From the NCBI GenBank assembly GCA_030374765.1, contig JARGXX010000088.1, positions 1,550,001 to 1,614,000 on the forward strand: a stretch of 64,000 nt of DNA. The letters run 5' to 3'. Positions within the stretch are counted from its first letter, which is position 1. Every line of letters starts with the position of its first letter. Positions 21,079 through 63,700 of this stretch are shown here, piece after piece. The DNA is from Agarophyton chilense. Taxonomy: Eukaryota > Rhodophyta > Florideophyceae > Gracilariales > Gracilariaceae. Below the pieces are notes generated by a model that saw only the letters and a program-made list of their open reading frames with translations, made no database searches and was not told the DNA's origin. The translations under genes and the position numbers were made by a program.

Positions 21079-21382
21079 CACTGCTCTCTACTTCCTGCGA
21101 GGGAAAAAAATTTTACTTTTAAACTCCGTGTATGTCGTGGTGCTCTGAAACTCTATCAACTTCCAGTTGACACCCTGCTCGGCCTTCTTGATCACGTCCT
21201 GACATCCTTTTCTGACAAAACCTGTCAATCAAACCAGTCGAAACTGTTAAAAGGTTTGTGACGTTTACAGGCAACTTAGAGCGACAGCACTGAGTTCGAG
21301 CACCGTCGTCGGAATAAAGCAACAGCCTGATCTATACTGATTCCACTTCTTGAATTTGCAAAAAAGGCCACCCACTCGTAAA

Positions 21383-28125: not shown

Positions 28126-28316
28126 GTTGAGTGTAGACGTCCTCGTTTATGCAAATGAAACGCATTCACATACGTAGCGAGGCCGGCCACGTATGTGGCG
28201 TGCGCGACGTGTACGAAAAAAGTCGATCACGTATCTGATGCACCGCGGCCGGCGAGTCTACAAGAGCCAGGCGGGTGCCACGGCGATCTGCCGAGATCAC
28301 TGGCATGCCTCTCTCT
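28126..28316 (+). repeat. Left 191-bp direct repeat of the tyrosine-recombinase element
   Basis: It matches 32172-32362 in the same orientation over 191 bp, from GTTGAGTGTAG to GCCTCTCTCT, with only a handful of differences. It is too short and internally placed for an ordinary LTR and fits the A1/A2 repeat of PAT/Ngaro-type split direct repeats. Confidence 0.9.
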
Positions 28317-28408
28317 TTCAGAGAGTCCCCATCACTTGGCGGAAGGCAAATTTCTTAACGGTCAAACGAAGTAGACCAAGCAAAAAAACTGTTTGCAACA
28401 TACACAAC

Positions 28409-29095: not shown

Positions 29096-29103
29096 TCACC
29101 ATA

Positions 29104-31056: not shown

Positions 31057-32111
31057 CTAACCGATCCGGCAGAAGAATAGAGTTGGCCAATGCAGGGATG
31101 TCGCGCCTAGGGTCACTGCCACCCACCTCAGGTATTCTGCGCTCGGCCGCCCTGCTCTCCGACTACGCTTGGAGTGGCCGTACTGCTGCAAGCCGCAGCT
31201 CCCAGTGGCGAGCATGGATAGAGTTCTGCACCGTAGAGCAGAGGTTTATACTTCCGGTAACGGAAGCGCATTTCATTGCGTTTGTCGGATGGCTGACGGC
31301 GGAGCGCGAGGCTGGGCGAAGAAGCGTTAGCAGCAAGTCCCTTCCCCATTATTTCAGTGCGGTGCGGCAGATGCAAGTAACCTTAACCGTCACACCGGTT
31401 CCTCCTTACCCATTTCTTTCGCATGTACTTCGGGCTTACCAACGGTGGGAAGAGAAGGAGTTTCCTCAGTCTACTGTTCGGTGTGGTGTGCCGGCGGAAG
31501 TGGTTCAAAGGATATGGGGACTCGGCATGGCGACGAACGCAACTGCAACTTTGCGAGATTGCGCAATGGTTGTATTTGCGTATTGTTTCAACGGGTTACG
31601 CGACAGCTCGGTAACGTCCCTGTTGACGCAAAACGTCGAGATCACGCAGACAGAAGTGCTCGCTCGGTTGACTACTCTGAAGGGCAAGCCTGCCAGTCGT
31701 GCGCCGCTAATGCGATATTGGCGAGTGTCCGAAGCTCCATCGCCGATCGATCTATGGCAGCGATTTGCAGTTGCACGTGGGAGGCACGACTGCTTCTTCG
31801 GACTTGACGGCGAGCGAACGCCATTAGCCGAGCAAACCACGACTCGAGCTTTGTTGCGCTGCCTCGCAGTGTTAAGGATCGAACCACCCGAGGGTGGAAA
31901 GTATACATCGCATTCGCTCCACATTGAGGCGCATACGGAACAGGTTTTGTTAGGATTTCCGCTCGAGGTTCGCTTGTCGCGCTTCGGTTGGGGACCTGGC
32001 GCAGGTGTGGAAATGGCAAGTACTTACTTTGACCGTACGATCGCTTTGTCTCCCGCTTCGTTCTGGGTATTCGGTCATCCATCGTGCGAGGTTCCCGCTT
32101 CCACCGCTTGA
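31020..32111 (+). CDS. Tyrosine recombinase of the DIRS/Ngaro-like element
   Basis: A 363-residue intact frame. The N-terminal core-binding domain spans about 35-150. In the catalytic domain the first Arg is Arg194 (Phe-Asn-Gly-Leu-Arg-Asp-Ser-Ser), His298 begins the His-x-x-Arg box, Trp324 fits the His/Trp position and Tyr336 (Ala-Ser-Thr-Tyr-Phe) is the nucleophile. The box reads His-Ser-Leu-His, so the second catalytic Arg is replaced by His301, which should abolish activity. The family integrates circular DNA by site-specific recombination, so no target duplication is made. Confidence 0.85.
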   Translation: MEPTIARDQLRMTNRSGRRIELANAGMSRLGSLPPTSGILRSAALLSDYAWSGRTAASRSSQWRAWIEFCTVEQRFILPVTEAHFIAFVGWLTAEREAGRRSVSSKSLPHYFSAVRQMQVTLTVTPVPPYPFLSHVLRAYQRWEEKEFPQSTVRCGVPAEVVQRIWGLGMATNATATLRDCAMVVFAYCFNGLRDSSVTSLLTQNVEITQTEVLARLTTLKGKPASRAPLMRYWRVSEAPSPIDLWQRFAVARGRHDCFFGLDGERTPLAEQTTTRALLRCLAVLRIEPPEGGKYTSHSLHIEAHTEQVLLGFPLEVRLSRFGWGPGAGVEMASTYFDRTIALSPASFWVFGHPSCEVPASTA

Positions 32112-32171
32112 TAAGCGGCCGCCTGATCAGTCGGAACAGAAAACGCTGCGCGATCGTAAGTTGGACGTTTC

Positions 32172-32362
32172 GTTGAGTGTAGACGTCCTCGTTTATGCAA
32201 ATGAAACGCATTCCCATACATAGCGAGGCCGGCCACGTATGTGGCGTGCGCGACGTGTACGAAAAAAGTCGATCACGTATCTGATGCATTGCGGCCGGCG
32301 AGTCTACAAGAGCCAGGCGGGTGCCACGGCGATCTGCCGAGATCACTGGCATGCCTCTCTCT
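32172..32362 (+). repeat. Right direct repeat of the tyrosine-recombinase element
   Basis: It is the partner of 28126-28316, 60 bp past the recombinase stop. It is followed by a C-rich tract. In a complete PAT/Ngaro element the right repeat is bracketed by a B pair; I find no such pair, so the right end may be truncated or of different design. Confidence 0.9.
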
Positions 32363-33790: not shown

Positions 33791-34318
33791 GTAATGTTAT
33801 CAATCAATTTTTTTAATCAATGCGGAAGCGTTATATAAGCATTTTAAAGGCAAAAGAAGCAAAAATAAACTACTCATACGTGTAAGAGTGAGTGAAAAAT
33901 ATGCAATAAAGGTTATGATTTTGGAACAGTATTTTTACTTCAAATTTTTTTTCACACTCATTTTGGTAGTTTTAGTGTAGCCAGAACGTCGATTTTCGGA
34001 AATTTTGGGCGAGGGATATGATTTTGAAACAGACTTCACTTTGTAAATTAAACCTATACTACATTTCAAGGCCGTACATGTGACTGACAGACTTGAGGTC
34101 GAGTTGGGTTACTTCTGACTAACCGATTTCAAGTTTCTAGACAGTCAGCGCTTCAGAGTCCCTCATTACATGTGGCCCCGCTAAGGTATTTAACTAATCA
34201 GCACACGCAGTGTGTCCCTAAATGATACATACGCGACGACGGACGGTGTACACCCACTCCCATACTCGTCACAACCCCCCGCCCCCCCCCCCTCCCCCAG
34301 TGGCTTTCAGTCCCTCTT
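33791..34318. other. AT-rich sequence without recognised gene
   Basis: Probably the 3' flank of the Tc1 remnant; it includes a C-rich tract at about 34275-34297. No open frame with motifs. Confidence 0.35.
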
Positions 34319-34870
34319 TTGTTCCGAAAAATGTCAGATGATGACTCCTCGAGCAGTCGGGATCTCGGTAACACCTCCACTTCTGAACAAACAACAGCGA
34401 AACATCTCGTCGAGCATCAACACGAACGACAAAAACGTCGACACGGGCCTTCTGGAGGACGTGCATCGAGCGTTAGAACATCTTTATGGAGTACTATTGC
34501 TGTGATCGTCATTTGCCAAGAGAATTCTGGTTCCCAAAAGTTCAGATGTAAAGTGTATGATTGCCTTGGAGGAATGAACAGGCACATGTCTACGAGTTAT
34601 GTTATCAATCACTTCAAAAGCAAACACCATTTGCTTTAGAATCGTCTCACTCATCTCAACAAGAACAACGCCAGCCCTGCCACACTTCAAGGTGAGATCG
34701 ATCCAGCGCGTTCTGTTTTCCTGGAGCAAAAAATCCGTGCGGGTTTACAAGCGTTCTTCCAAATGCCTGGTAAGCCTCTTACTGTACCTCAAAAACCGAA
34801 ACAGGCACTGGAGACACCCTCGAAGCGGTCCGTTCAGAGCGTTACGCTGCTACTGTTTTTATATGCAGCA
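34319..34870 (+). pseudogene. BED-type zinc-finger fragment, hAT-like
   Basis: A short open frame with Gly-Ser-Gln-Lys-Phe-Arg-Cys-Lys-Val-Tyr-Asp-Cys near 34528-34565 and Ser-x-Val-Ile-Asn-His-Phe-Lys-Ser-Lys-His-His near 34595-34635, which fits the Cys-x(n)-Cys...His-x4-His layout of a BED finger at the N-terminus of hAT transposases. A stop follows at 34637, then about 60 more open codons. No transposase core is present. Confidence 0.5.
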
Positions 34871-35072
34871 TAATTGCCCTGCTCGCAGCTCTCATTCCCA
34901 CTGCGAAGGGGTCTACTTTATGTTTTCAATGGCAACCACAGCCCAGCATCACGTGAACTGCATGCCCTAAAACTCTCCCATATAAATATCACCGCAGCCC
35001 ATCGCCCACAACCGCTACGCTCCTTTGCTTCTTTTCCTTACTTCCGCCTCAACGCGCTCCCCGCATTCCACA

Positions 35073-38000
35073 TCATGCCTCGCTGCTGCTTCTCCCGTTG
35101 CTCCTTCTTCGCCTGCACCACCCCTGACCAGCAGCGCCACCAACTCAGGTGCCTTCACCGGCTCTCCCCCGCAAAACGCACGCCCCCACCAGCGATCACT
35201 GACTTCCTCCCACGCACAAAGCGATGCCATTTCCCTTTTCAACTTCACGCCCCTCTCACCCTCTCAAACCAACCCTCCAATAACGTCCTCGTCGCAGATG
35301 AAGACTCCTATTACCACCAGCAACATGTCCTCACCCTTCACACCGCAGACTCACACCACATCGCTAACAGTTCTCTCTGCTCAGTCTCATTTTCGGCCCC
35401 TCTCCCCCAAACCCCTTCACCCCCATCTCCCAACACCCCCAAGTAGAGCAGTTCGTCCTCTACATCTCCTCCATCGCCTCCAACCGCGGCAACCGAAAAG
35501 AGAAAAAGCTCATGGCCACCATCAACGACTCAAGCTTCTCCAAGTCAAATTTCCAGTAAACCATCTTTTCCGCCCGCCAATGCATCGAACTCCAGTCAAA
35601 CGTCTTCAAGAACCACATCACATACTTCGGCTTCGTCCCACACTCCATCGCCGACACTCTCAACGGCTTCTCCACAACCGTCTACATCAAAAACCCAATG
35701 GATGTCCTCAAAAATCAGCCTTCCCTCGCACAACACCACAACACATCCTTCCACCCCATCGCCCAAAAGTAACAATCCAATTCCCTCGCATTTGCTCACT
35801 TCATGGACGCCTCCCTCAGGCACAACGAATTCCCTGCACTCAAATCTGCCATCATGCAGTCCAAGAACGACAAACTCATATGGCAATGCCCCCAAACAAC
35901 CGGAATAGACTCCTTCATCGGCTTTATCCAGCTCTACTTTGACAAGTCCTTCACCTTCCTTAAAGTCTCCACCGGTACCTCCTGTCCTCCGCACATCACC
36001 GTTCTCAACTTCTCGGACTCTTTTAGACAAAAATGCATCTATCAAAACCTCGCCCTCGTCAATTACCTCCTAACCTCCTTCCAACCCACCGCATTGATGT
36101 AAGGAGAACACTTAGAACGCGAATAACTTGGTGAAGTGTAGACCTGAGTTCGTTTTTCGAGACTCAGCCTTTATTCTCCTATTCTTTCATAGTGCTCCAA
36201 AGCACTTCTACTTTGTTCTAGAAGCACAGTATTTCATCTAAAACAGTTCTTAGAGTTTCTATAATTAATGTTCTATGGAAGCTTCTAGATGCTTCTACAC
36301 GGTACTAATTCATAGAGAAGTTTCTAGTTGTTTCCTTAAGACCTTTTAGAGGTTTCTACAACACGTATTCGCCCCCGAAGCAGACGCTATCCCTCGCTCG
36401 TCCGGAAATATCCATCGCGAAATAAGAATAGAACTCACACTAGCCGCAATCAAAACTATCCTCTATCCTCTTCTGTTCTCTGATTTCCATGGCTTCCCCT
36501 TCCGCGACGCTCATAAAGTCCTCCTTTAATGTCCGCCATTCCTCGAAAGCTACTGCGTAGACATCTCCGAGGCCAGGTACATCCTCGCCTTCTCCCACGG
36601 AGCATGCCCCAAGAGACCCTGCCACCGATTTCTCCTCACTCGCTCCATTCTCCACGAACCCTCTCACAACGCTCCCTTCCGCACCCCCCCGCACACCTCC
36701 AACACTGGGAAGCTGCACGTCTCTCCCCTCCATGACTCCAAAAAGACGCTCCTCTCTCGAAAACTAAGAGTCGCCCGCACTAAGAATGAGAAAGGACTCA
36801 CAGCCCTCCAACAACTATCCTTCCCGAAATACAGCTCCATTCTCGAATCCTACACCCTCTACACTATCTCCTAAGAGCTCCCCCTGTACAGCATCTTCGA
36901 GTACGAACGCCTCCACAACGTTCACCTCGGAATCTCCAAGCTCATCACACTCACATCCATCGAACGGCTCAAGTTCGAATCTCTCTTCACCACCATCGGC
37001 CCCTCCAACACCTCCCGCTCCTTTATGTCCGTCCGCTTCTCCATACGTACCCACTCAAACTCCATTCTCGCAGCGATCGAAGCTCACTCTCCCGCCCAAG
37101 GCCTCTGCATCAACTTCTGCACCTCCGACAGCGCCCGTAACCTCAATGGATTCATCAATCCAGAAGGCATACGCGGCATGCTCGAAGCCAAAGAATAACG
37201 CGCTCTTAAAATGGTATTCCCCTTCATCGGCTTTTTCCACCAAATACACCGATCTCCTCCTCATAGCCATGCGCTACAAAATCGTTCCAGAATGGACAGG
37301 AGATGCACACGAAACACTTGAGGACTACATTCTCTCATTCAAACTCTCGGTAGTCACCGCCCTGGGCCCTCACCACACCTCCAATCTCGGTACCCTGAAG
37401 CTCCACCTTCTCGACCACATTGTCGAAGACATTCGAAGATACGGCGGCCTCCATTTCAACGATACTGGCATCTACGAACACTTCCACACTATCTTTAAAG
37501 CCCATTACCGCCACACCTCCAAGCGACGATCCACCGCCCACGCTGAAACCTTCCACACCATCGACCGGTCGCGCACACTCCAACACTGGAACACCATCCA
37601 CTCTCCCCCTTCCCTCTCCAAATCCTCCTCCAAAATTCTTCTCACACCCCGTCAGCCAGCCTTTGTCTGTGACTGCAGAACTATGCCACTTCCATATCTC
37701 ATCACCGCACACAGGCTCCTGCGCCTCAACCCTCTCTCCGACCCTTTCTTCTTTAAAGACCTCTTCTCTCCAGACACCATTTTCACCCTCTCACAAATTG
37801 GATTCACTGCACCCCCCTTCTTCATCGCCGTTACCCTCAATGCACTTTCCCTCCACGAGCACCATCCGGACATCCGTCTTTTCCATCTCACCTTCGTCAA
37901 GTCTGCGTACATCGTCGGTGGATACATTCCCACTTTGGAGGATAACCACCATACACAAAACGAAATCGCACACAAGGATCACCTCATCCCTGTCATTCAA

Positions 38001-38260
38001 CGCATCTTCTCCGCTCCCTCCTTCGGTCTCTCGAAGTCTTAAAAAATCTCCTACGTCATCGTCGCCGGCAAAACCCTCCTCCATCTCTTCCCCTCTCTTT
38101 CAGATTGTGCCATCTCAGCTTCTTCATTTGACTCTCATCAACAAAAACCCCCAACACCTCCACCAAGCTCGCAATCGTTCATTTCTTGGAGGTATTCCCC
38201 CAAAAGGGCATTATCGACTGGGCCCTCAATTTCATTTCTTTTCACTGGGTCACGGATGAC
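35073..38260 (+). pseudogene. CACTA/tnp2-like transposase 1, degenerate
   Basis: A decayed transposase in several frames. It starts with a Cys/His cluster (Phe-Ser-Arg-Cys-Ser-Phe...Gln-Gln-Arg-His...Cys-Leu-His) like the N-terminal finger of such proteins. After the insertion at 36098-36363 come Asp-Phe-His-Gly-Phe-Pro-Phe-Arg-Asp (about 36480-36510), Ala-Arg-Tyr-Ile-Leu-Ala-Phe-Ser-His-Gly-Ala-Cys-Pro-Lys-Arg-Pro-Cys-His (36570-36625) and Tyr-Glu-Arg-Leu-His-Asn-Val-His-Leu-Gly-Ile-Ser-Lys (36900-36940), which match tnp2/Plavaka-type transposases. The end reads Leu-Lys-Leu-His-Leu-Leu-Asp-His near 37395. Many stops. Confidence 0.55.
36098..36363 (+). repeat. AT-rich LTR-like insertion with heat-shock-element-like motifs
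   Basis: About 266 bp beginning TGTAAGG and ending ACAACA interrupts the transposase coding. It holds TTCTAGAA (36216-36223), GAAGCTTC (36278-36285) and GAAGTTTC (36317-36324), all fitting the alternating nGAAn/nTTCn heat-shock element. Flanks do not show a clear target duplication, so the edges are approximate. Confidence 0.45.
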
Positions 38261-38640
38261 TAACACAAACACACAGTTCCACTTGTACCCATCTCTTCAG
38301 CCTCGACTTCTGGAAACGTTTCTCTGTGGTTCGGTCTCATTCCTTCCTTCTATATCTTTGGCTCCGTCCATGTCCTCCGAGAGAACTACCCCGCTCCCCC
38401 CTTCGCAACACGCTTCGAATAGGGCTTCCACCACTTCTATATCAACCGTTTCTATAGGGACCCATGTGTGGAACCATTCATTAAACTTTTGCCTTAGTTC
38501 ATGGCTCCTAATACTACTTGTGTAGAACCCACAATTCTCACTTCTTACCCTTATTTCTCCATTGTATTTTCCACTTCGCTCCCAATCACTCTCTGCAACC
38601 GAGTAAAATAAGACTCTTCCTGTTTACAGGCTTCAACCTA

Positions 38641-41600
38641 TCAACTCAGCACAGCACCGAGACTTTTCATCAAGTTGTCCACAAAGAAGTTCTCCTTCAT
38701 TTCAAGGTAGATCTTCCCAAATGAAGACATACAAATTCCCACCGTCGCAACCCTCTCCGAATATCCTGCCACCTTCCTTCCATCCCCCGCAAGAAACACA
38801 TAGTGCTCAAACTCCACACCATTCCTCTTCCACACTACGTCCAAAGCCACCTCCAAAATCTCCTCCACTGCAAGCGGTAAATACTTACCATATAATGTAG
38901 AAAACAAGCCCTTGCGTCCAACATCTGTAGCATCCGCTCTAACGGAGAGAGCAGACACCTGCGACAGCGTTCGGACTGCCGATGGGTCGTTTGCGGCGAA
39001 TGAAAAGGGGTGGTAGAGCTACAACACCATCGAGCTGGAAGTGGGGTGCAAGGCCACTACTCGCCAGCGAGGGTGAACAGTGCAACTGTAAAACGTTGAT
39101 CGAACGTAGGTACGAGACGGCTCGTGAAGTGGTTGGGGGCTGACTATCTATTATAACTCGTCCGGATCTCCAGTTAAGGAATCCTAAGCGAGGAACAGAA
39201 TAGTCATGATGCCCATGTTGTCTCCTTTACTTGGAGTCGGCGCTCACCTCTGGTACACTGTATACTGTGTACCAGGGTGAGTGCCCAAATAATACGTAAA
39301 TAATACCCAGTGGTCAGCCACTTAGCCAAACCACTGTATGGGTACGGTCCCTAATGGACTTATATCTACAAAGGGTAGTAAAACCAGCCACGTGGATCGC
39401 CACTACATGCGCCGTTGCAAGCCACTCCACTCGTGATACCACGTGTTCCAACAATGTACCCTGCCTCCTGGCATCCTACGCGGTGTGCCGTTTCATATCA
39501 AAATGCTGATGATATCACTCACTTATGAGTTCCAACCGCGACTTCGCGAAAAATCAGCCTATCGGATTCCCCGACATAGTAAAATACTACAACCTCTCTG
39601 TCCATAGCCGTCAGCACGCAAACAATCCAAGCATCCATTATCGCAAGATGCATCACTGTCCCATCCGCGTTTTGAATCTCCCCATTCTTTTCCATCCTAC
39701 CATCGTTTTTTATTAACTCCTCCAACACTTCAACCGCAATTCCATTCGTAAAAAACAAAACCCCCCCATCAAATCTTCTGAACCCCGGAAGAGCCCTCGA
39801 CCCCGAATACATCCGATTTTCAATCCGGCGCATGCGCCATGCCGATAGCCTCCTCTTCACATCCTCATCCCCTACCCAGAACTTCTCTCGCGTCTCTTCT
39901 ATCTGCATCTTCAATTTTATTCCTTACTCTGTGCCCTCCTGCAACTTCCCACGCCTCGAAATCAAGTAATAACCAAGCAGCCCAAACAGTCGGTCACATG
40001 CACTCTGTTTTCGTACCCCTACCACATCACTCATCATCTGTCTAACCCGCTGTATCAAACGCATATCCTCACTCACCTCCTAAACGCACTCCTCCTTCCT
40101 CCTCGTCGTCTTTTTGGACTTCCACCGTTTGTTTCTCTTCCAACTCCGGGCCCGCAACATACTTCAGAAACGGAACTTTTCCCTCTTGAAAAATGACATT
40201 TTGAACGCCCTTATCAACGTCGCCACCTGAAACGGGCAATTCGGTACTATCTCGTTCTACCGTAACACGAACAAACTCTCGTCGTTTTCCTGTCCTACCG
40301 TCTCACTCCGATGAATCCAATTCCTCGCAGCCACCTTCTTTTTAAAGCATAGCTCCGATGTTTCTGTCTTCGAATAATGTAGAATCCTTTCGTACACATA
40401 CCGTTCAAATCCATGGAATCTCTCCTGCACTCCAAAGTCCTACTTCCGTCGCCTCGCCATCTCCCCCGATCCCCGCCCTTTCTCTCCCCTTTACGTCTCC
40501 CCCAACACATTCTTACAACTCATCTCTCCCCTCAAGGGCTCTCCTTCCTTCTGCGTCAAATTTAAACTCACCATAACACTATAGTAATTCTCCTTCACCT
40601 TAGTCAACTCTCCTTTCAAAACATTCACCTTTTCAAGCGAAGTCCTACGCGGAAACATACTCAAAATCTCCTCCAAAGCCTCTGTACCTTTCTCTTCGTC
40701 CTCTGCAAAAATCGTTCCCTTACAGCCCTAGCTCGCTCTGCTCACCCATAGCAGTCCTTCCCGTCATTCCTGGAGTTTCCCTCGTCCTTCTCACACGCAT
40801 GTCATCTGGGGTCCGCGAAATACTTTTAACCGTCACCTTTCTCTTCTCTACCAGACCCACGTACCAGAAACTCTCACAAAATACGTTTCATATTTTCCCT
40901 TTCATCCACTACTACGGTTGGGTCTTCCAGTTTTCTTGTTCGCAGTGCTTCTGTTCCTAGCAGTGTTTCTCGTATTTCCAAAACTTCTCCTCTTGACCTT
41001 ACTCTTACGGTGGTTTAGTGGGGTAGCGAAAATTTTTTCATCCTACTGGTCTACCGCCCATTCCTCCCTTCTAAGCGAACCAGTGTCTCATCATGTGCAG
41101 CGCCCCTAAGACCTGAAATCCCTGCGCCGTCGGCTGAGTGCCTGGTCCCGGCTCCAGTGCCCCTCTCAATATCATCTGTTACCATTATTCCCATTTCTAT
41201 AGTACTGTGAGATGTTTCATTTTCTCTTCTCGATTCCCATCTTCGTAATACATGCGAAGTCTGTCTCGGTGCTGACTCGTTCACCCCGCTTCTCGACTGC
41301 TCTTCTCCCTCATTTACCCTTTGAGCTATTTATTCCTCTCCAAAGTCCTGATCCACTGCCTGAATTCTAAGATATGCATTTGCCCATGGTGCAACGGTCC
41401 AACTTTCTTCCTCAATCGTGTTAGTAGGTCTCCTTACCTCTTTTATATCATCTCAGCGTTCTGGGAGTCCTACCATTCTGTCCACCCTCACTTCCACTCC
41501 TCCACACGCAGAGTACCCACGCTCATTTTTTGTATTTCCCGCCCTGCGTTGCGTGCACCTTCTCCATATGCCCATTTCGTCTTTTTGTCGCTTTTCTCGC

Positions 41601-41745
41601 ATTCTCTGTGCCCGGCTTTGCGGAGATCTCCTCACTTACCGTTGCTCCGAGCAACTGCCCTCGCTGCGAACCCTTTCGTCTCTCAAACTCCTCATCCCCT
41701 TCGTCGGCGACCCTTCTCTACCACGGCCAGCGCCGAAAACATGAA
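38641..41745 (-). pseudogene. Decayed minus-strand gene convergent to transposase 1
   Basis: Three better-preserved blocks lie on the minus strand: 38641-38958, 39519-39914 and 40491-41300. The last has a charged, helical Lys/Glu-rich segment that could be a coiled coil. A segment at about 38990-39500 does not fit any frame and may be an insertion. No domain is recognised. The gene faces the transposase tail to tail, the same layout as the second CACTA-like region. Confidence 0.35.
39243..39280. repeat. 38-bp imperfect palindrome
   Basis: Arms CTCACCTCTGGTACACTGT and ACTGTGTACCAGGGTGAG pair with one bulge and one mismatch about a central AT. It can extrude as a cruciform or fold as an RNA hairpin. 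It sits in the stretch that interrupts the minus-strand gene. Confidence 0.75.
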
Positions 41746-41793
41746 AACAATTAAAGTTTTTGATTATTTGGATATTCAAAACATTGTTTTAGG

Positions 41794-41921
41794 AGTGCCC
41801 GCGCACAGAAAGTACTCTGGTCGCCAGGGTGTGCACCCTGGCGTACTCACGCAGTTTAAATTTACTTATCTTGTGGGTGGTGTGTGTTCGCCAGGGCGCG
41901 CACCCTGGCGGCCAGGGCACT
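41794..41921. repeat. 128-bp element with terminal inverted repeats and two near-identical hairpins
   Basis: AGTGCCC (41794-41800) and GGGCACT (41915-41921) are inverted. Inside lie CGCCAGGGTG-TG-CACCCTGGCG (41822-41843), a perfect 10-bp hairpin, and CGCCAGGGCG-CG-CACCCTGGCG (41889-41910), the same with one mismatch. It looks like a small non-autonomous element or a structured RNA. Its GC content is far above that of the flanks. Confidence 0.6.
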
Positions 41922-42329
41922 TTCGTCCCACGGTACTGGAAATCCAAACTTTACACCCTCCACGCTTAGCACCTTATGGTTAATAGTTAACACCACGAGC
42001 ACCCCTTTTAGTGCGAGGTACGACCGCTAACATTTACGGCACAGTTTGTCCCTCTCTCTATTTAATTCCCATCTCCTCGTCGCTTCTTCCATGTGCTTTT
42101 ATTTTGATGTCCAACTCAGCAGGAGATAAGATGCTCCGTTTTTACAAGAATGCCGGCGCTATTTTCGCACCGCGTGATGCGTACGCGGAGAGTCAAATGG
42201 AATCCGAACGACCAAAGGAGGCCTAGTTCCGCCCAATATCGAGTACGCCGTTGACCATCATAAACAGAAGGAGGTAGCATAGTTTTTGAAGTATGAAGTG
42301 TAGTCACAGAATTTATCCAATTATGAAAC
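41922..42329. other. Unassigned sequence
   Basis: Short open frames only; nothing recognised between the hairpin element and the start of methyltransferase-related coding. Confidence 0.35.
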
Positions 42330-51903: not shown

Positions 51904-54318
51904 GTGGCGTTCCCCTTTTCCGAATTGGACGTCTTTCTTCTCTCGGAAGATTCCGAGAAACCCTTACCAGGGAACTTCGTGCCTATTACTCCAGAGGAGA
52001 TGATACGGGAGCAATTCGCTGGCCTGTTCTGCTCGAAGGTCCGCGCTCAACTCAATGGAGGAGGTACTCTCCCCTTTCAGGTGAATGACGCCGGATACCT
52101 TTTACGGACTGTCGCATCGCACCCACAAATCGTGGTACCACATAACCTCCAGTAGAGGGTATTGCGGTTGTCGCACTACTCCAAACTGAGTGGCCACGTC
52201 GGGGGACGGAAACTTTACCTCACCCTACGCCGTAACTTCTACTGGCCTGGCATGGCAGTGGACTGCTACGCAACAGTGCGGTTTTGTACCGATTGCGCTC
52301 GGAAACCGTGTCAAGCTCCGCCGTCAAGCGACGAAGTTGAAGCTGTTTCCAGGTCGCGCTCCATTGGAGTTTGCGGCCATCGATATACTCGGTCCCTTCC
52401 TTACCACTAAGCGGAATTACAAGTTCTTACTCGTAATTACGGATCGCTTCTCAAAGCTGGTCCGGACCGTACCGTTACGGATGATCTCCGCTCTGAGCGT
52501 GGCTCAAGCCTTCGTCCTACACTGGGTCTTCGTCTACGGTCCACCGGTCAACCTCCTCTCCGATAACGGGAGACAGTCCGCCTCTCGTTTCTTCGAGGAT
52601 GTGTGTCGCATCTTAGACAATAAGAACCTGTTCACGACCACTTACCACCCCCAATCTAATGGGCAGGCCGAACGGTTCAACCGGACATTACTTGCCATAC
52701 TCCGTTCATACGTTGCAGACCACCCCAAAGATTGGGACTTGCTCACCGATGCGATCACCTTTGCGTACAATACGCAGGTGCACAGGACAAGTGGATTAAA
52801 GCCCTTCGAGCTGGTACTTTCCCGTACCCCACCGCCCGTGGCGCTCGTACCACAGCCCACGCTGGATACCTTTCCTTCACCAACTGCTTATCGCGAAGCG
52901 TGGAAAACTTGGCTCACGAAGCTCGTTCCCGCCGCACGGCATTCAATGGGCCGAGCCCAGGCCGCTTAAAAGCTTGACTTTGATAACAAAGCACCTCGCT
53001 CGCCGCCACGTCTCGCCCCCGACGGTTATGTATTCATCCGCAAGGAGTATTGGAACCCAGAGAAGGAGAAACGACACAAGCTGTCACCCGTTGCCGACGG
53101 CCCCTTTCGGGTTATTTCGGTGGCTCCCGACACTGTCGTTGTTGAACTCGCTGGTAATCACAAACGCATCTCCCGCGATCGCGTGGTATCGGCTCCTCCG
53201 CCGTTAACATCCCAATCTACTGGTGTGACTGCTCCCGTTGAAACGGATTCATCGACCCCCTTACCCCAGGTCCACCCGCGTCCCTACGCCTTACCACATC
53301 CATCTCGGGGTTTGTCTGACCTTCCGCTACCCGCGGCGCTCAACCCGAAAGGAATCGTATCGCGCATTCGTCGCTCCTCCCCAGTCCACCCGACGGACAC
53401 CAACTCCGGTGCATCGTCTAAGGAGGGGGAGGCGCCCGACAGCCGTCGTAATCCGCTCGATACCGTCGCTGAAAACGCCGCACCGTCGCGTGTCATTCTT
53501 CGCCCATCAGGGGTGCCTGATACCGACGTCCTGCAGGACTCGACGCAGTCGCTATCCAAGCCTCAAAACGCAGCTGCAGATAACGCCACCAACACTCGCA
53601 GAGGTGTCACCACACGTGCAACACGGAATGAAAATGCGCTCGACGCACTGCAGCCTGATACAGTACGAGTGGACGATGCACCGCCAAGTAACCCGCACAG
53701 GGAGGCGGATACATCCACGGCGATGACGCCAGACAGCCAGCCATTGGAACCCTCACGTGACTACACGGAATCTCGCCGTGGGAGAGAGAGGTGCGACAAT
53801 GCGCCACCGCCCCAGCGAATCTCACCGCTGAAGCGAACTTCACCACGCCAATTAGCAGAACGACTACCCGGGTTACCGCCGGTGTGGGCCTTCCAACCGG
53901 AGTGGGAAACGCCGAAGCAAACCAGGCACTTGGCGAAGATGAACCGCCGAAGCCGGGTCGACATTCCACTCAGCCGAGGACTGCCTTGCGCGCTACACGG
54001 TCCGACCGGAGCGAAGCCGCCCAACGCGTGATCACTTCGGTACCCCCCGTCTCAGGACCGGTACCACGCGTAAATAGCGACACCGCCATACGGGATGGCC
54101 GGGATGTGTACCGACAAGAGTTCGTGGTCGGACGCATTTTGGAGCACTGCTACCACCCAAAGGGGTCCATCCAATACTTGGTCCGTTGGTACGGGTACGG
54201 CCCCGAATGGGATTCACAGGACCCGATAGAGCACCTATTTCGGTCAAAGGTGGTACAGTATCATCTTCATACTGTCATGGCTTTGCCGGCTACCATAGAC
54301 CGAACCCAAGTGGGATAA
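51904..54318 (+). pseudogene. Gypsy chromovirus copy A: integrase and chromodomain, 5'-truncated
   Basis: The copy starts abruptly in the linker before integrase, lacking gag, protease, RT and the left LTR. The integrase has the zinc region (His...His, Cys-Ala-Thr...Cys near 52260-52300), Ile-Asp-Ile-Leu-Gly (first Asp, about 52380), Ser-Asp-Asn-Gly (about 52557) and Ala-Glu-Arg-Phe-Asn-Arg (Glu, about 52670). A Pro/Ser/Thr-rich linker (53120-54030) leads to a chromodomain ending at 54318 (Phe-Val-Val-Gly-Arg-Ile-Leu-Glu-His...Val-Arg-Trp-Tyr-Gly-Tyr), which in this class guides integration to marked chromatin. Stops and frameshifts lie at 52155, 52967 and about 54030. Confidence 0.85.
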
Positions 54319-54530: not shown

Positions 54531-56409
54531 TTAGTTGGACGAACCAGGATTACCGTGCGCGCCAGCCGAATCGCTAGCAGAGTTACTCCCGCCGGTCAGG
54601 CGTGCCACGAGGGCGTCTCTCATCGCACCGATGTCGCCGCTCGCCGCTTGCGCGTTCAGTCCAACACCTCGAAGGAACTGGGAGATCACGAACGCCTCTG
54701 GGCCTATGTGAACCTCAATAACTTCCAGTTCGTCCGGCAACCCCGCCGCCAATGGATCGATGACTGCACCTGCGTGAGTCGCTCCCTGTGGCAGCTGCGC
54801 CGTAGTATCGGCACCATCGGGGTTTCCCACGTCTTCCATGACCTCTTCGCCACGGTATTCGCCCGCCTCCTCCGGGAGATCATCACCGCCATAGGCGAAG
54901 TAGAAGTCATCCAAGTTGACAAAATCCACGGGGTGCCCGTATGTTATGCCTCGTGGAGCCATCCAGAGTGCCGACGCCTTCGCCTCGGAGATCTTTTGCT
55001 GCTCCCACGGGTTAAAGAAGATGAAATCTCCCGCCAACGGCATGCGACGCCCCGGAGACCGATCAATCCCACCGGCTGCTTGACCACGGCTGCTCTGCCG
55101 GACGGGCACGACAGCCCAGTCGACACGCCCAATGATATCGATGAGCTCTTGACCTTCATCAGCGTTATTGACACCTCCAAGAGGGGGTTGAAGGTCCAGC
55201 TGCCGGATGTAACCACGCAAACGCGGAGGAAGATACCACAGTCGATACTGGTCGTAGGCATCCCACAAGATTTACGCCGCGGCGCGGACTGCCCAATCAG
55301 TTAGGACCACGGACCATAAGCCGGAGTGCGGATCCTCGATGAGGTACGAGCCCAGGTAGGAGCCGACTGGAGGCAACTCCACGTAACATACCCGGCACAC
55401 CTCGACGGAGGACCAGCACCCATGCAGGGGAACGTATCGCCCGTACTGATAGAAGGGACTAGTTCGGTTTATCTCCGTGTTCTGATAAGAGACAAGGAAC
55501 CCAAAGCGGAATCTGCCCCGACGCCCCTCTCGGATGAAGTTCTGTAACCACCGATATCGGGACTCACGACGAAGGTGACGAAACTCGGAACGAATGATCA
55601 GACGAACCCAGCAGATCGCATCTTGACGCGCTCGCGGTTGACCGCGCCATGCGTAAGTTTCCAACTCCGCAAGGCGGTCACAATAGCCGATCTCACCCTG
55701 CGTCCGGTACATCCGTAGGTCGAAGCCGAATTCGTCGGGGATGGGGTATTGGAAGTTCGCCCGGTTGATCCGTGAGTAGCCGATGCGGACGAATATACAA
55801 TGCGCCTCTTCCGCCAACTCGCGCCTTCTCGCGCCTTCGCCGCAGAATCGCGTGAATGGGAACCGCCACACGGCGTCCCCAGTCCCACGAAGTGGTGATC
55901 CAAGCCGGCAGCTCGCCCGGGAGACGCGCAGTGCCATCAACATACGCGGCCACGAGTTCTTCGTCGAAGACCGCTGTCGGATGGAACCACGGAGCTCTGC
56001 GGAGAATCGCCGCATGTTGACGCGGGTTTAACCCGACGAGTTCGTCGTAGCTGGGCACGGTGTCCTCCGCAGGAGTGATGTGGCTTGAAGCTTCAACGGG
56101 ACCCCGGGATCGGCTCGGCGCGGTTGACGAGGCACTCCCCCGCGGAAGGGGAGCCGAATGGAAACCGGAGAAGTAACCCCGGCGGGGATTGTTACCACCC
56201 TTCATCGGGAGTACTGGTCGCCGAGGTATCAGAATGTGGTCGCGGGAAGTTGGCGTACGATGCAGAAGAGCGCTCGAAGTTCGAGGAGTGGTTACCGCGT
56301 TGGTGCGTTTGTCGTTCGGTTGTGCTGCTCTGCCGTCGACAGTCGAGTGGTCTCTGGACGCGTTACGCGGCTCGCTCTTTTGCCGGTTTGACCGTTGCCT
56401 CCCCGCCAT
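54531..56409 (-). pseudogene. Antisense ORF of chromovirus copy A
   Basis: On the strand opposite pol, between chromodomain and 3' LTR, lies a reading of about 630 codons homologous to 58680-60455. It starts Met-Ala-Gly-Arg-Gln, 36 bp inside the LTR edge. A frameshift near 55820 and an in-frame TAA at 55272-55274 break it. Shared blocks: Ser-Trp-Asp-Trp; Tyr-Cys-Asp-Arg-Leu; Ala-Trp-Arg-Gly-x-Pro-x-Ala-Arg-Gln; Cys-Trp-Val-Arg; Tyr-Gln-Asn-Thr-Glu-Ile; Glu-Leu-Pro-Pro-Val; Ala-Tyr-Asp-Gln-Tyr-Arg-Leu-Trp-Tyr; and a C-terminal Gly-Asp-x-x-Ala-Met-Arg-Asp-Ala-Leu. The N-terminal 110 residues are basic and disordered; the middle is Trp/Tyr/Arg-rich, then acidic. The function is unknown. It is not Gag by position or strand. 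Confidence 0.75.
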
Positions 56410-56429
56410 GTCGACAGCGTGTTCGTCAC

Positions 56430-56444
56430 CTAAGGAGGGGGATA
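56430..56444 (+). promoter_or_regulatory. Polypurine tract of copy A
   Basis: TAAGGAGGGGGATA immediately precedes the 3' LTR start, the expected primer for plus-strand DNA synthesis. Copy B has an equivalent AAGGGGGGGATA at 58634-58645 on its own sense strand. Confidence 0.8.
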
Positions 56445-57331
56445 TGAAGGACAATGGCCTTCAAGTGGGTTTCTTCCCAGGACTTAGAGATTTCTCTCGC
56501 TTGAAGACTAGCTTGGTCTATGAAAAGCTATACGCTATTGCGTGCTGACGGCCGGTTAGGACCGAAAATGCACACTGGTGGAACACGTGGACTGCACGGA
56601 TGCCGACACTCGAGTGCGAGGCGTGCCACACGTGGCCCGGATTCTACCTAATGGTTAGTATTATTCAGTAATTTGTAGTATTTTTTTAGCTACGCTATCG
56701 CTATTTAGTGTCTATTTTTCGGGCGCGCGCCCACTGTCAGGGGCCGCGCGCCACACTACCTAGGAGGTTGAGCACTGCTCCCCAGTAAAAACCCTCTTGG
56801 GTGAGACCAAGGAGGGAGTCTTGGCTCTGAACGTTTCGCCTTCGGCGCGTCTTCACCGCATACTGCGTGAGCGCCCGTCGCACGTTAGTTCATCCACCTT
56901 TCTTTCGACCAGAGTGCTACAACCACCGTGGATTCATATTTAATCGCCGACACGTGTCGTAGTCTCGCCCCTGTATAGGGTTTCGCCCTCGTTTTCCTCT
57001 TGTTCTCCTTTTTGGCTCTCGTGAGTGGCCGCCTCACTCACCTCGCTCGTCCACCTCATACGAGTGTTTCATCGCTCCTTTTCCGACAATCGCCGTGGTA
57101 CCACTCCGCCTAGGATTGATCACACCCCGGACTGTGCCCTGCTCACCTAAACACTCTAGGTATATCCTGCCGGATTGGCCTCGGTCTTACACCCGACTTC
57201 GTCGTGCCTTTCCAGAGTGGCTCTGTTTTTGTGCTCCGCTGTGACGCGTCTCCTCCGCCTGAGGCGTGTCTCTCAAGAGAGGAAGATCCCGAACATCTTC
57301 GTGGTGTCTGCGCTCCAAGCGTTGTCCTACA
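56445..57331 (+). repeat. 3' LTR of chromovirus copy A
   Basis: 887 bp from TGAAGG to CTACA. It shares the ends and a GAGGAAGATCC...GTCCTACA right edge with the 863-bp family B LTR, but the middle is diverged, so it marks a separate subfamily. The left partner LTR is missing with the truncated 5' end. Confidence 0.8.
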
Positions 57332-57770
57332 AGTTTTGCAGAACGATTTCCGGTAACTGGGAACATGCCATGATATACCATGTGACAGTAGAGAAGTCGG
57401 ACAAGACGCACAAGAAGGAACCTAGAAAAGCAAAGGAAGAGCTCCTAGACCACCTAGACGCTGATATCAAGTACTTACTGCATGTATTTGAAGATATGTT
57501 TCGTACTGACCTTCCGTCTATACTGCCGCCAACTCTTCAAGTGGACCATGCGATTGAAATCAAACCTATTTGCCCTCCTCCCCATCGGTCTCTTTACCAA
57601 CTTTCCCCAAACGAACTATTGCCAGCTAAGGATTATGTTGAGACTCTCTTGAGGAGCGGAAAGATAAAACATAGCTAATCACCCTATGGATCCCCTTTAT
57701 TCTTTGTGAAGAAGCCAGTAAGGGCTCTTAGTGACGTAGTAGACTATTGAGCTATGAACCGAATAACAAA
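57332..57770 (+). pseudogene. Fragment of a third gypsy element: N-terminal RT
   Basis: An open frame encodes the start of a gypsy reverse transcriptase, including Tyr-Gln-Leu-Ser-Pro-Asn-Glu-Leu, a Gly-Lys-Ile-x-x-Ser step (with TAG in place of the next residue) and Pro-Leu-Phe-Phe-Val-Lys-Lys-Pro, ending at an Asn-Arg-Ile-Thr stretch where the copy B LTR begins. It was therefore a target of copy B; the other half should lie beyond the window. Confidence 0.75.
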
Positions 57771-58633
57771 TGTAGGACAATGCCCCCAAGGGGGAAAACC
57801 TACGAAGACGTCCGGATCTTCCTCTCACGAGGTAACCGGCGCCGTAGAGCCCTCCCAGGGATCGGCGCGCAATGCCGGGTGTAAGCCGGAGCCGAACCGT
57901 CGCAACGGGCGCAGGGAGGCTGAAAGAAGCCGAGGATATCCGCCGAAGCGGTGCTTGCGTATCCTCTGAGGAGGCAAAACCCACGAGAGTGGCAGCATGA
58001 CAGGTGTCAGTGCGAGCCGCAAGAGCGGGAATTGCCCAATGAAGGGGAGGAAAAGGGAAGGAAAATGGGAACGGAGGCAAGAGGGCGAGGTTGACCACGA
58101 GTCGCAAGAGGGGACTCGGGAATAGCCGGCACTGCCGGGTGTAACAAATCGTATACACGGGCGGAACCACGAAAGTGGGAATAGATACCCAACACACGAA
58201 GGCTGCTTGAACGTCCAAGGGGGTTGGGAAGCCGTGCACCACGGGAAATCCCTCCGTAAGGAGTTGTATATCCGCGCAGGCGGTTCGACCCAGAGCCAAG
58301 ATCTGGAAGACCAAGATCACCGTTGTTGGGGAGACTTTACTGGACCGGCGGCCGCGAGGCCGGCGGCCTAAGTACTGTAGTCACCGTAGAATAGAATAAA
58401 TAAAGTCTATCCTAAATAGCTAAATGTCCGTCTAGCAAAGGGGCCAATCTGGCGGCCACGTGTCGCGCGGGCGCTGCGGCCACGTGTATGGCACCCGGTC
58501 CCGCCGGTGCATCACCGGCGTTCTGGCCATCGCCGTGAAAACGGATTACTCCTACTCATAACGAGGTTGCACGCCGAAGGCTCCGGAAAAAACTTAAGTC
58601 CCCAAAAACCTCCCTGGAGGACGTTGCTCTTCA
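57771..58633 (-). repeat. 3' LTR of chromovirus copy B
   Basis: 863 bp, TGTAGGAC to CTCTTCA on the plus strand, that is TGAAGAG to CCTACA in element sense. It matches the solo LTR at 6768-7630 in length and nearly in sequence. The element runs leftward, so this is its 3' LTR. Confidence 0.95.
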
Positions 58634-58679
58634 TATCCCCCCCTTAAGACAGGGCGAACACCCTGAAGAGGAAGTCGGC

Positions 58680-60455
58680 ATGGCAGCTCGTCATGATAAG
58701 AGCGCGTCCGACACCGGGTCTCCGGAAACCAACACACCTTCACCAAGGATCCCACGCAAGCTCTTCGCATCCGATTCCAACCACAGCACACCAACACGCA
58801 CCATGTCCAACCCTGACCGTCATAACACATCCGCGACTCCCGCCCTTGGCGGTTCCACCGGCTTCCGGTCCGCGTCACACCCTGGGGATGTTACCAACCT
58901 CGCGTACGAAGACCGCCGTATTGGCACCCGCTTTCGCGGGCAGGCGGACCCACCGCAGTGGCCGACCTACGACGCCCTTGTGGGTGCTAATCCGAGAACT
59001 CGGCATGGCTCCACGATGTTGCGGTATGCGCCTTAGTTTCACCCATTGGCTGTCCGCGACGAGGATTTGATCCACTCCTACACCGATAATTCGGAGATGC
59101 TCCCGGGCGACCTGCCCGGCGTGGTGACCATGTCCTGGGATTGGCGTAATCGTATCGCCATCCCGGTACACCACATACTCCTCCGACGCGGTGAATCCTC
59201 TGCGGAGGCTCAGGCCGCGCTTGTGCGGATCGCTTATCTCAGGCACCATCGGGCGCCTTTCGAGTTCCCGATACCGCCAGAGGTCGAATTCGACGTCCAC
59301 CTTTACCGCACTCGCGGGGAAATGTCGTACTGTGACCGTCTTAACGGATTGGAAACCCTCGCTTGGAGGGGCACACCGATCGCTCGGCAAGAAGCCCTTT
59401 GCTGGGTACGACCGATTCTTCGGGCAGAGTTCCGCTACCAACCGCGGCAGTCGCGCTCGAACTTCCTTCAGAACTTCATCCACGATGAGCGGCGTTGGCG
59501 GGCCCGGACCGGGTATTTCGTACCGTACCAGAACACGGAGATTAAGCGCATCGCGCCTGCTCACCGACGTGGTCGGTACGTCAGTCTCCCAGACTGGTGG
59601 TCCTCCTTGGAGGCGTGCTGGGGTTGCTTCATTGAGCTGCCCCCGGTCTTCACCTATGTAGGGTCGTCGTTCTTGAACGATCCCCAGTCGGGGTGGTGGT
59701 TTGTCGTGGTAAGCGAATGGGCCGTCCGCACTGCGGCTTTTATCTTCGCTGAGGCGTACGACCAATACCGATTGTGGTACGTGCCACGGCGTGTGCCGGC
59801 TGCGATCCGCCGTTTGGACATGCGCGTCCCCCTCGGGGGCGAGACGAACGAAGAAGAGATGCTGGGCCTCCTCGATTTTGTGGAGGGGGTCCAGTGGGAT
59901 AAGGTCCCGCTGGAGAACTCCCAACGCATTCAACCGCGTCGCGGGTCTGGCCCCGGACTCGGGAGGAATACCGCGCTAGCGGGGGATTTCATCTACTTCG
60001 ACCCCTGGGAGTACCACGAGATCAGCCGCGAGGAAGCGGAAGCCAACCGGCCTGCGCCGCGTGAAGTCCCGGCCGACCACCCGCGAGGGTATGTCGACTC
60101 CAGGGACTATTACCGCGGCTATGCGGATGGTGACCCGATGGTCGAAAACGAACCGGGGGATCCGGGTTACGTTCCGATGGAGGATGACGAGTCCGGCGAG
60201 GCCGGTGAGGAGTCCGTTGAATGCAGTGGTGCGGCTCCATCTGGGGCTGCTGATGCCGTGCGAACGGATTCCTCTCTGACTCCATCGGTGGCGGGCCCGC
60301 CCGCAACTGCCGCTGGCGCGAAGCGGGGCGAGGTCATCGCGCGCTTCCTTCGGGAGGTGGGGCTTCGCCCTTCCGAGATCTCGGGTGATGTGGCCGCCAT
60401 GCGGGATGCCTTAGCCAACCGCCTGGGCGGGGGTCCACCTCGTGCGGAGGAATGA
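58680..60455 (+). pseudogene. Antisense ORF of chromovirus copy B
   Basis: A frame of 591 codons opposite to pol, from an ATG 47 bp inside the LTR edge to a TGA at 60453-60455. Only one in-frame stop breaks it: TAG at 59034-59036, where copy A has TGG (Trp) in Ala-Pro-Trp-Phe-His-Pro. The 112 codons before it are basic and Ser/Pro-rich, the core (about 125-370) is Trp, Tyr and Arg rich with the blocks listed for copy A, and the tail is acidic and ends in Met-Arg-Asp-Ala-Leu-Ala-Asn-Arg-Leu-Gly-Gly. The core aligns without large gaps to copy A at about 45-50% identity by eye. Such a long, near-intact frame opposite a dead pol is notable. The function is unknown. Confidence 0.8.
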
Positions 60456-60788: not shown

Positions 60789-63700
60789 TTATCTCTCTTG
60801 GGCGTTTACCAGCGTGGCTGGGAGTGCGGTCCCCGCAAGGCGGTGGTATCGCATTACCGCGGAGCGCGGGAGGTGCTCGATGGGCTCCGGGGTGTCCCAC
60901 TCCGGCCCGTATCCGTACCAACGGGTCCGGTACTGGAGCACCCCGTGCTCATCGTAGCTATGTCCGACGATTCGGTCGAGGACGTACTCCTGCACGTAAA
61001 CTTGCCGGCCTTGCCGGGTGGTGCTGGGCTCGTCATCGCCTGTTCCGGGTCACCCGGTTTGTCATTCCGCTCTGCGGTTGTTGCCGGGATGCCGGGGCTG
61101 CCGTACCGCTTCGCGGAAGTTGCCGGCGCGGCCGGGTTGTGTTTCCGCTGGGCGGTAGGGGCTTCCCTGAAGTCTGCTCTTACCGCGAGTTTGAGGGGGT
61201 CCTTCCGTCTTGGTGACGGTTCGCCGGAGGCCTCCGCTTGATTTGCGGCATGCGGCGTTCCCATTGGTGGGCAGTTTCAGCCGTGCGGTGCGCCGTGGGC
61301 GGTGAGTGGTTCACCGTCCCAGCGATCCGCCTCCGCGGGGTGGCTGTCAGCCAATGACCGAGATGCCGGGTGCCCATTGGTCCGATCTCCCGCCCGGGTC
61401 GCGTGACCTTGAAAACGGGTGGTCGGACCGTCGCGAACAGTTGGCTCCGATTGTTCGGCAAGGGAGGCGGTTTTCGACTTGTCGTCGCGCCCTTTTTCCT
61501 CCATGGGGTTCGTACCGTTCTCAACGGAGTGGCTCGCTAGACCTGCTTGCGCAGGGCCCGCCGGAGTACCGGTATCGACCGAAACGCTCGGTGTGCGACC
61601 GCGAATGTGCGGGGAGCCCTCAGTTGCTTCCACGCGATGCGGAGCGTCCGTAGGGTCTCGCTTCCCGGCTTCGGGTCTTCGAGCGCCTTGGTCTCCCTTG
61701 CGGGGTTGCGTGGCGGTCGAGTTGACCGCCGCGTCCCGCGGGAGCGGATTGGCGTCCGGCGACGATGCCGGTTGCCCGCTCGGGGGCCTTGCCCGGGTTG
61801 TCCGGTTAAACTTCCGTTGCGACGGCGATGCTTCCGCGATTGAGCGGGTCCCCTCACCCTCCTTAAACGGAGCGACAGGTGATGGTGGGCTAACCGCATG
61901 GCGGGTATAAATACCGCTGCGCGGCGCCCGTAAGGGTAGCTGGCCGCGAGGGCCAGGTTTTTCCGGCATTGCCGGTGGTTCCGATAAAGTCGGTATATCG
62001 GAGAGACCCCGTGAAGGGTGTGGTACCACGGCGGGGCGTGGTGCCACCGTTGTACCCGTGGTATCCGAGGCCGTTTCGACGGGGGCTGATGCGTTTTCCG
62101 CCTGCGGCGGTGGGGCGGCTAGGATGCGGTCTTGTGAAAGACGTTCGTTGTCGCCGTTCTTGTCCACCACAACGGTGCCGGGGAGGGAGGACACGACCCG
62201 GAACGGACCTTCAGCGACAGGCGAGAGCTTGTGACGCTTGTCGGTCCGGGGGTTGTAGTACTCCCGGCGAACGAACATGTAGGTTCCCGGCTTGGGCGGT
62301 GCCGGTAGTGGTCCGCGTAAGCGGTTATCAAAATCCCACTTGTAGGCGGCCTGGGCACGTTCCATGGACTTCCGGGCGACCGGTACGAGCTTAGTAAGCC
62401 AGTTCTTCCACATGAGGCGGTATTGACCCACAGATGGGAAAGAGTTGACCCTGTGTTGGGGTTCGACCGCCACTGGCGGGGGTGTCCTGGAGAGCACAAG
62501 CTCGAAGGGAGTCAGACCGGTTGTCCGGTGAACCTGCGTGTTGTAGGCGTAGGTGATAGCACCAGAATAAATTTCCCACGTCATTGGGTGATCGGATACG
62601 TAGGAGCGTAGCGACGCGAGTAGGGTGCGGTTGAAGCGTTCCACCTGCCCGTTTGTTTGCGGGTGGTAGGTGGTAGTAAACAGGTTCTTGACGTCGAGGA
62701 TGCGGCAGACGTACTGAAAGAACTTAGAGGCGAACTGCTTACCGTTATCGGATAGAACCTCTATCGGAGGGCCATAAACGAACGCCCAGTGCGTAACGAA
62801 GGCGTTCGCAACCGTGAAAGCGGTGATCTTCCGTAAAGGTACGGTGCGCACCAGCTTCGAAAAGCGGTCTGTGATAACCAAGAGGAACTTGTTTCCCTTG
62901 CGCGTCTTGAGTAGAGGCCCGAGAATGTCGATTGCGACAAACTCGAGGGGCGCCCTTGCGGGGAAAAGCTTCATCCGTTTGGAGTGCTTCCGGAGTTTCA
63001 CCCGGTTCTTTGCGCATTGGGTGCAGAACTGCACCGTAGCGTAGCAATCAACCGCCATAGCGGGCCAATAAAAGTCCCTTCGCAGGGTTAGATAAAGTTT
63101 TCTCCCACCGGAGTGTCCCCCGAGGGTCGGGTAGTGTGAGAGGTGGAGCACCCTGGTTTGCAGGGTGTGGGGGACCACGATCTGGGATCGGTGGTCCACC
63201 GTCCGGACGAGGTAACCGATGTCGTCTACCTCGAACGGGAGGTCCTCTCCACCGTTTAGGCGGGCCCGTATGCGCGTGCAGAACGGGTCGCCGAACTGTT
63301 CTCGGATCATCTCCTCGGTGGAGATGGGTACAAAGGTCCCGGGTACGGGTGTTTCATTCTCGCGCGCTGCGAGTAGCTCATCCATTTCCATGGTGTCTTC
63401 CCCGGTTTCGGGCCAATCCGACTCCGTCGGTGTTTTCCCTTCCAAGGTAAAGCTCGGGATCTCGTCGACCTCCGGGCCGGCAAGTGCTTCACCTGTCGTA
63501 GGTAATCGAGAGAGGGCGTCTGCTTGGGTGTTCTGGACACCCTTTTTTTAGACGACCTCGAAGTCGAATACCGCCTAAGCGGAGGCGCCACCGCATCAAG
63601 CGGCCAGAAGGATCTGCGATGTTCAGCAGCCACCTCAACGAGGCATGGTCCGTGTACACGGTGAAATGAACGCCCATGAGGTATGGGCGCAGCGTGGATA

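Follow-up and report, generated by a model that had tools for sequence, protein, structure and literature searches.

Layout of an antisense gene in two chromodomain-bearing elements

The window analysed here is the whole 64,000-nucleotide stretch at positions 1550001-1614000 of contig C88 from the red alga Agarophyton chilense, and 79.8 Mb of this genome were searched. Two copies of Ty3/gypsy-type retroelements lie in the window with their 3' long terminal repeats (LTRs) facing each other, and in each of them a gene on the strand opposite to pol occupies the space between pol and the 3' LTR. Sequence comparisons indicate that chromodomain-bearing elements of this type in the red alga carry this antisense gene as a further coding unit. 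The relevant features are as follows.

52190..52969, plus strand: copy 1, integrase part of pol (PF00665, E 6.5e-7, 30.0 bits, below the gathering cut-off of 32.6)
54121..54246, plus strand: copy 1, pol chromodomain (PF00385, E 2.9e-5, 24.4 bits, just below the gathering cut-off of 25.1)
54531..56409, minus strand: copy 1, antisense gene (family F1), ATG at 56409, end at 54531, about 626 codon-equivalents
56410-56444: copy 1, spacer from LTR edge to ATG, 35 bp, with an apparent polypurine tract
56445..57331, plus strand: copy 1, 3' LTR, 887 bp, TG...CA
57771..58633, minus strand: copy 2, 3' LTR, 863 bp
58634..58679, plus strand: copy 2, spacer from LTR edge to ATG, 46 bp, with an apparent polypurine tract, here CCCCCCC
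58680..60455, plus strand: copy 2, antisense gene (family F2), ATG at 58680 (conserved), 591 codons
60801..60992, minus strand: copy 2, chromodomain-like segment of pol, reading QEYVLD...WYGYGPEWD...PIEHL
61277..63547, minus strand: copy 2, integrase part of pol (PF17921, E 3.1e-12, and PF00665, E 7.9e-10, both over the cut-off)

Copy 1 reads on the plus strand as integrase, chromodomain, antisense gene (minus) and 3' LTR, and copy 2 on the minus strand as integrase, chromodomain-like segment, antisense gene (plus) and 3' LTR. The original prediction, made from the letters alone, had placed a long frame of about 630 and 591 codons opposite pol in the two copies, between chromodomain and 3' LTR. 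The strand, the place and the 591 codons stood, but neither frame is open throughout: the copy 1 gene is split by a frameshift between the open reading frames (ORFs) 55693-56460 and 55272-56027 and by an in-frame stop at 55272-55274, and the copy 2 gene is broken by a single in-frame stop at 59034-59036. "Opposite" holds for the strand but not for the position, since the copy 1 frame with the chromodomain stops at 54318 and the antisense gene at 54531, and the two genes lie tail to tail on opposite strands, without overlap. Also as predicted, the LTRs belong to different subfamilies (887 and 863 bp), and the two proteins can be aligned, with 52% protein identity over 222 codons between copy 2 and the middle piece of copy 1. 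The partner LTR of copy 2 (L032:3129-3992, 98.0% identical) begins 7.5 kb further along, outside the window.

At least four diverged families of the gene were found in the genome, F2 plus F1, F4 and F5. The position between pol and the 3' LTR was observed in both window copies and in the F2 loci L031 and L033, and for F4 and F5 the representatives showed the pol end only. The F4 loci keep the same order, with the ATG about 80 bp from an LTR edge set by analogy, so that an ATG next to the LTR is a feature of F1, F2 and probably F4. On the opposite strand past the gene, PF00385 scored above its cut-off in F4 and F5 (33.9 and 27.3 bits) and below it in F1 (24.4 bits) and F2 (20.4 bits, E 4.9e-4, in locus L002), while no chromodomain was seen in the 1128 bases past the longest frame of the F1 locus L044. 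The predicted chromovirus host is supported by a chromodomain at the integrase C-terminus, the feature on which this assessment was made; it may not settle membership by reverse-transcriptase clade, because chromodomain Gypsy elements of Ectocarpus fall outside the chromoviruses (PMC12477816).

Among 1824 loose candidates, the best 90 F2 places (copy 2 included) all matched the final 472 codons of copy 2 at 91-100% protein identity; of the 90 places listed, 64 lacked a stop and 26 had one to three. When 40 F2 places were ranked by DNA, 18 were full-length and stop-free, nine had stops and 13 fell outside the list of the best 90, and joining the protein and opposite-frame lists gave at least 127 distinct F2 places. 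The copy 1 gene was 77-100% identical to the other F1 loci (locus L036 being copy 1 itself), and the copy 1 piece, used as query, gave at least 152 matches in the genome. Two relatives from other species gave at least 77 and at least 107, those 77 being absent among the 90 F2 places listed. Pairing of gene and integrase, counted for F2 alone of the four families, was found for at least 66 of the 90 integrase rows listed, with the gene on the opposite strand within 6 kb. Five of the other 24 rows had a gene match in the DNA search (compared by eye), so that the scope of the lists accounts for at least part of the shortfall; the frame is not missing from most copies.

Some F2 copies are regularly spaced. 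Three on C68 (3138538, 3147735 and 3156932; L023-L025 and L031) lie exactly 9197 bp apart and two on C77 (296246 and 305495) exactly 9249 bp apart, as if the elements stood in tandem with shared LTRs; bases 1-803 and 9198-10000 of L031 are identical. A lone F2-type LTR, possibly a solo LTR, was found at 6768-7630 of the window; it shares 96% identity with the copy 2 LTR and has the opposite orientation.

Conservation of the protein between and within families

Identity per codon position and dN/dS (the ratio of nonsynonymous to synonymous divergence, omega; NG86 and YN00 methods) were determined, with all other frames checked, for six cross-family comparisons. Between F2 and F1 (508 codons, 49% protein identity) the three codon positions were identical at 0.62/0.64/0.36, with dN 0.51, dS 2.7 and an NG86 omega of 0.19; the corresponding values were 0.49/0.58/0.32 and 0.23 for F2-F4 (606 codons, 36% identity), and 0.53/0.60/0.33 and 0.25 for F1-F4 (494 codons, 41% identity), all three omegas being rough because cross-family dS is saturated, and YN00 gave no estimate. 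No dS was computable for F2-F5, F4-F5 or the pair of window copies, in which third positions were identical at 0.29-0.32 against 0.53-0.71 for first and second positions. Every other frame in the six comparisons carried stops in at least one copy. The closest of these frames, which lies on the opposite strand, kept 31-43% identity but had 14-23 stops in each copy across 478-606 codons (9 and 12 stops across 222 codons in the window copies). Between families, the comparisons point to the antisense gene's frame as the only one conserved.

The omega of three family pairs and the same codon pattern in the fourth family indicate that a core of the protein is under purifying selection between families. 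In F1-F2, dN was 0.36 for the core (308 codons), 0.37 for the chromodomain (62 codons) and 0.24 for the integrase (238 codons), suggesting that divergence of the core is about as slow as that of the chromodomain and somewhat faster than that of the integrase. The N tail, the linker and the C end are weakly conserved.

Several observations, in addition to the saturated or non-computable dS, weigh against a protein maintained by selection. Both window copies are damaged. In F2-F4, pairwise counts indicated little constraint, if any, on the N tail (dN 1.24, dS 1.58) and, for the C end, 20% identity with dN exceeding dS. Within families, omega was weak or near 1 (NG86 0.49-0.80, YN00 0.54-1.11, six pairs), so that the selection on the protein claimed in the original prediction is borne out between families and not clearly inside them. 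A pooled in-family omega of about 0.7 (27 distinct sequences from 30 loci) was set aside, because the loci had been ranked by protein score, which biases it. In a control for F2, a chance frame of 366 codons on the other strand of the gene was stop-free in 81 of 112 listed rows (hand count), compared with 64 of 90 for the gene; an open frame inside F2 therefore shows only that the copies are young, and frame retention inside one family was rejected as coding evidence.

The same points could be read as a by-product, an unread frame staying open through local GC richness or through constraint acting on the pol strand. The copies are young, with the chance frame open as often as just stated; GC content is high in the region (54-65%), omega inside families shows no clear drop below 1, and one opposite frame keeps some identity between families (31-43%), if less than the gene (36-52%). 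Such a by-product would, however, leave unexplained why the gene frame keeps 36-52% identity while third positions fall to 0.29-0.36, why the other frames are interrupted by stops, why pol ends short of the gene, and why the annotated genes of other species include relatives. We regard it as highly improbable and, in our view, refuted by the cross-family codon pattern, by which the frame goes beyond chance. Omega is not near 1 between families, and similarity imposed by a frame on the pol strand is ruled out by the stops and by the early end of pol.

The protein, its relatives and its possible roles

The protein has about 590-620 residues. In the alignments, a variable N tail leads into a conserved, Arg- and Trp-rich core (about 290-310 residues); an acidic linker then joins the core to a short C-terminal piece, which is helical in low-confidence models only. 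A GFRSxPLP-like motif, a loose pattern written after the alignment had been seen, occurs in the N tail of F1, F2, F5 and the relatives P0002, P0004 and P0008, and weaker versions of it are seen in F4 and P0005; the window copies carry it as follows.

56146..56166, minus strand: N-tail motif of copy 1, GFHSAPL
58860..58880, plus strand: N-tail motif of copy 2, GFRSASH (other family members mostly GF[RH]SxP)

No significant match turned up in Pfam, NCBIfam or the PDB sequences. The sole Pfam row, DUF6127 (E 0.2, below cut-off), fell on a single piece of copy 1. With E allowed to reach 5, where HMMER filters drop most very weak matches, no family was found for the P0002, P0004, P0005, F2 and F4 proteins, TRP28 (PF04195) being absent from the same search. 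Two AlphaFold runs on shallow alignments (12 and 11 rows) gave a mean per-residue confidence (pLDDT) of 32.5 and 32.2, and in the second model only the last ~40 residues reached about 60. Together with the cross-family codon pattern, these null searches uphold the prediction of a conserved antisense protein gene with no detected sequence relation to known proteins.

Two protein searches, each over up to 8000 candidates and so liable to miss distant relatives, gave at least five and at least eight homologues, the named ones being from Gracilariopsis chorda, Gracilaria domingensis and Agarophyton chilense. In a midpoint-rooted tree of 15 proteins (seven of the eight found and eight host-genome rows), F1 joined the Agarophyton protein and F2 the Gracilariopsis and Gracilaria proteins, and F4, F5, P0004 and P0005 fell outside the F1 and F2 groups; the tree has some long branches, two of its rows have fewer than half their positions filled, and the P0005-F5 join is unsure. 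The tree suggests that the homologues interleave with the host-genome families, and on the simplest reading the gene families would predate the species splits, although horizontal transfer may be another source of the interleaving. An age of about 100 million years is given for four Gracilaria species (PMC12502185). A scan of viral contigs matched 17 stretches by pattern, and none was confirmed as a relative.

Antisense accessory genes of LTR elements are described, in the sources drawn on, from flowering plants and Botrytis, with functions unsettled. The antisense additional ORFs (aORF-3R) of the plant Ty3/gypsy elements Grande (gene23), RIRE2 and Retand belong to the same position class, and GENE23 of maize Grande is comparable in position to the algal gene. 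Their hosts, however, are flowering plants and not red algae; Retand elements are non-chromoviruses, nearly all with TRP28 in their antisense ORFs, whereas the algal elements have a chromodomain, which speaks against a non-chromovirus host as in Retand/Tat, and their antisense protein has no Pfam match. In Boty-like elements of Botrytis cinerea, which are gag-pol elements that include a CHROMO domain, brtn is an extra gene in antisense orientation (PMC4227169, PMC7264820); none of the five and eight homologues was named as fungal, though brtn may be missing from annotations. ORF2 of PvRetro13 from Phaseolus is also antisense and lies between pol and the 3' LTR (PMC7264820), but carries an SMC domain. 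HBZ of human T-lymphotropic virus 1 (HTLV-1) is an antisense gene, and the HTLV antisense promoter lies within the 3' LTR (PMC7264820, PMC11963269); HBZ is a retrovirus gene, and the likeness is in layout only.

Accessory genes are known in red algal DNA transposons (PMC12477816). The present gene was not described in the titles or abstract openings of literature on red algae, antisense genes and Gypsy elements, a set with most subscription literature outside it; the antisense arrangement is thus already known, and the protein family appears undescribed. That red algal chromodomain elements, too, have a conserved antisense gene, with a protein family of its own, suggests more than one origin of the arrangement and a benefit to the element.

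The account we tentatively prefer, at somewhat short of an even chance, is that of an accessory protein acting in trans, supplied by integrated copies through antisense transcription out of the 3' LTR. With the antisense ATG 35-46 bp from the LTR edge, transcription would start in the 3' LTR or the flanking DNA and would run toward the pol end. The protein would be made from integrated DNA and not from packaged sense RNA, and copies damaged at the 5' end could still supply it in trans. Judged from position, its most likely role would be accessory regulation, either of the element's expression or of host silencing, by analogy with antisense genes whose function is itself unsettled in the sources drawn on (PMC7264820, PMC11963269). 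The role is a guess from position, because no domain or fold was found, and this counts against the account as well.

The antisense RNA could act instead of a protein, by forming double-stranded RNA with the genomic RNA and so limiting the element. A transcript from the 3' LTR would head toward pol, so that convergent transcription is expected, and such a role has been raised for other antisense ORFs (PMC7264820); it leaves selection on the amino acids and interleaved protein homologues in other species unexplained, and we consider it rather unlikely, though RNA and protein roles could coexist.

A structural or packaging protein, a Gag partner encoded on the antisense strand, also seems unlikely. 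Its appeal lies in the Arg-rich core (36 Arg and 0 Lys in the 290 residues of the P0002 core), but the net charge of that core is about +1, no zinc knuckle was seen by eye in the alignment, and a profile comparison with the element's own gag-pol detected no relation, at two near-zero match probabilities (0.1% and 0.5%).

The scarcity of lysine raises another explanation. F2 has 2 lysines in 591 residues, compared with 10.9 expected from codon-position base use (one-sided Poisson, 0.001), and F1 has 3 in 499 compared with 9.9 (0.01); in F4 (7/618 vs 12.4) and F5 (7/486 vs 9.8) the depletion was not significant (0.07 and 0.24). Among the relatives, P0002 has 1 in 617, P0001 2 in 488, P0006 0 in 211 and P0007 0 in 247, and P0003, P0004, P0005 and P0008 have 3, 5, 7 and 3. 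Asn, also an AA-codon residue, was above expectation in F1, F2 and F4, and four pol pieces tested showed no lysine depletion. Since lysine deserts have been linked to ubiquitin-system proteins (PMC10169902), a lysine-poor protein might meet that system, either shielding element proteins or sending host silencing factors to degradation. The depletion in F2, F1, P0001, P0002, P0006 and P0007, not shared by Asn or the pol pieces, favours this, but it is weak in F4, F5, P0003, P0004, P0005 and P0008, the lineages are not independent and no ubiquitin-related domain was found; we consider the proposal improbable.

The fullest version of the preferred account would be an undescribed accessory family older than the Gracilaria/Gracilariopsis split, expressed only from integrated DNA and never from packaged RNA, whose lysine-poor protein escapes or exploits the ubiquitin system and lets damaged copies act in trans against silencing; as a whole we hold this to be improbable. 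An envelope-like protein, as proposed for sense ORFs that some plant elements carry at the same site between pol and 3' LTR, is hardly credible, given the antisense strand and the fact that none of three proteins tested has a transmembrane or hydrophobic stretch (the best Kyte-Doolittle mean over 19 residues being 1.45).

Other features of the window

Between the two facing 3' LTRs, a fragment at 57160-57675 resembles by eye the start of a retroelement reverse transcriptase, its only Pfam row being Dicer_PBD, below cut-off. A further element of 4.2 kb (28122-32362), which we presume may be of DIRS/Ngaro type, lies between 195-bp direct repeats that are 97% alike. It contains a reverse-transcriptase-like frame with one internal stop and a YLDD motif (29104-31056; PF00078, E 2.6e-6, just below cut-off) and an end ORF (31020-32111) with no Pfam match, tyrosine recombinase-like by eye. 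Its reverse-transcriptase frame is overlapped by a 663-codon frame that is open over 1029 codons in near copies and has a relative at C25:383632, open over 1032 codons at 33% identity; this is perhaps an overprinted gene or a composition effect.

At 34001-42000 the strands are strongly skewed (GC skew -0.31 to -0.43 across 8 kb), and the two large ORFs tested there matched no Pfam family. The stretch at 10001-18000 is GC-rich (60-69%) with long ORFs on both strands, and the host genes in or beside it include the following.

16731-20231: leucyl-tRNA synthetase-like gene
21341-22522: Tim44-like gene
24228-25358: tetrahydrofolate dehydrogenase gene

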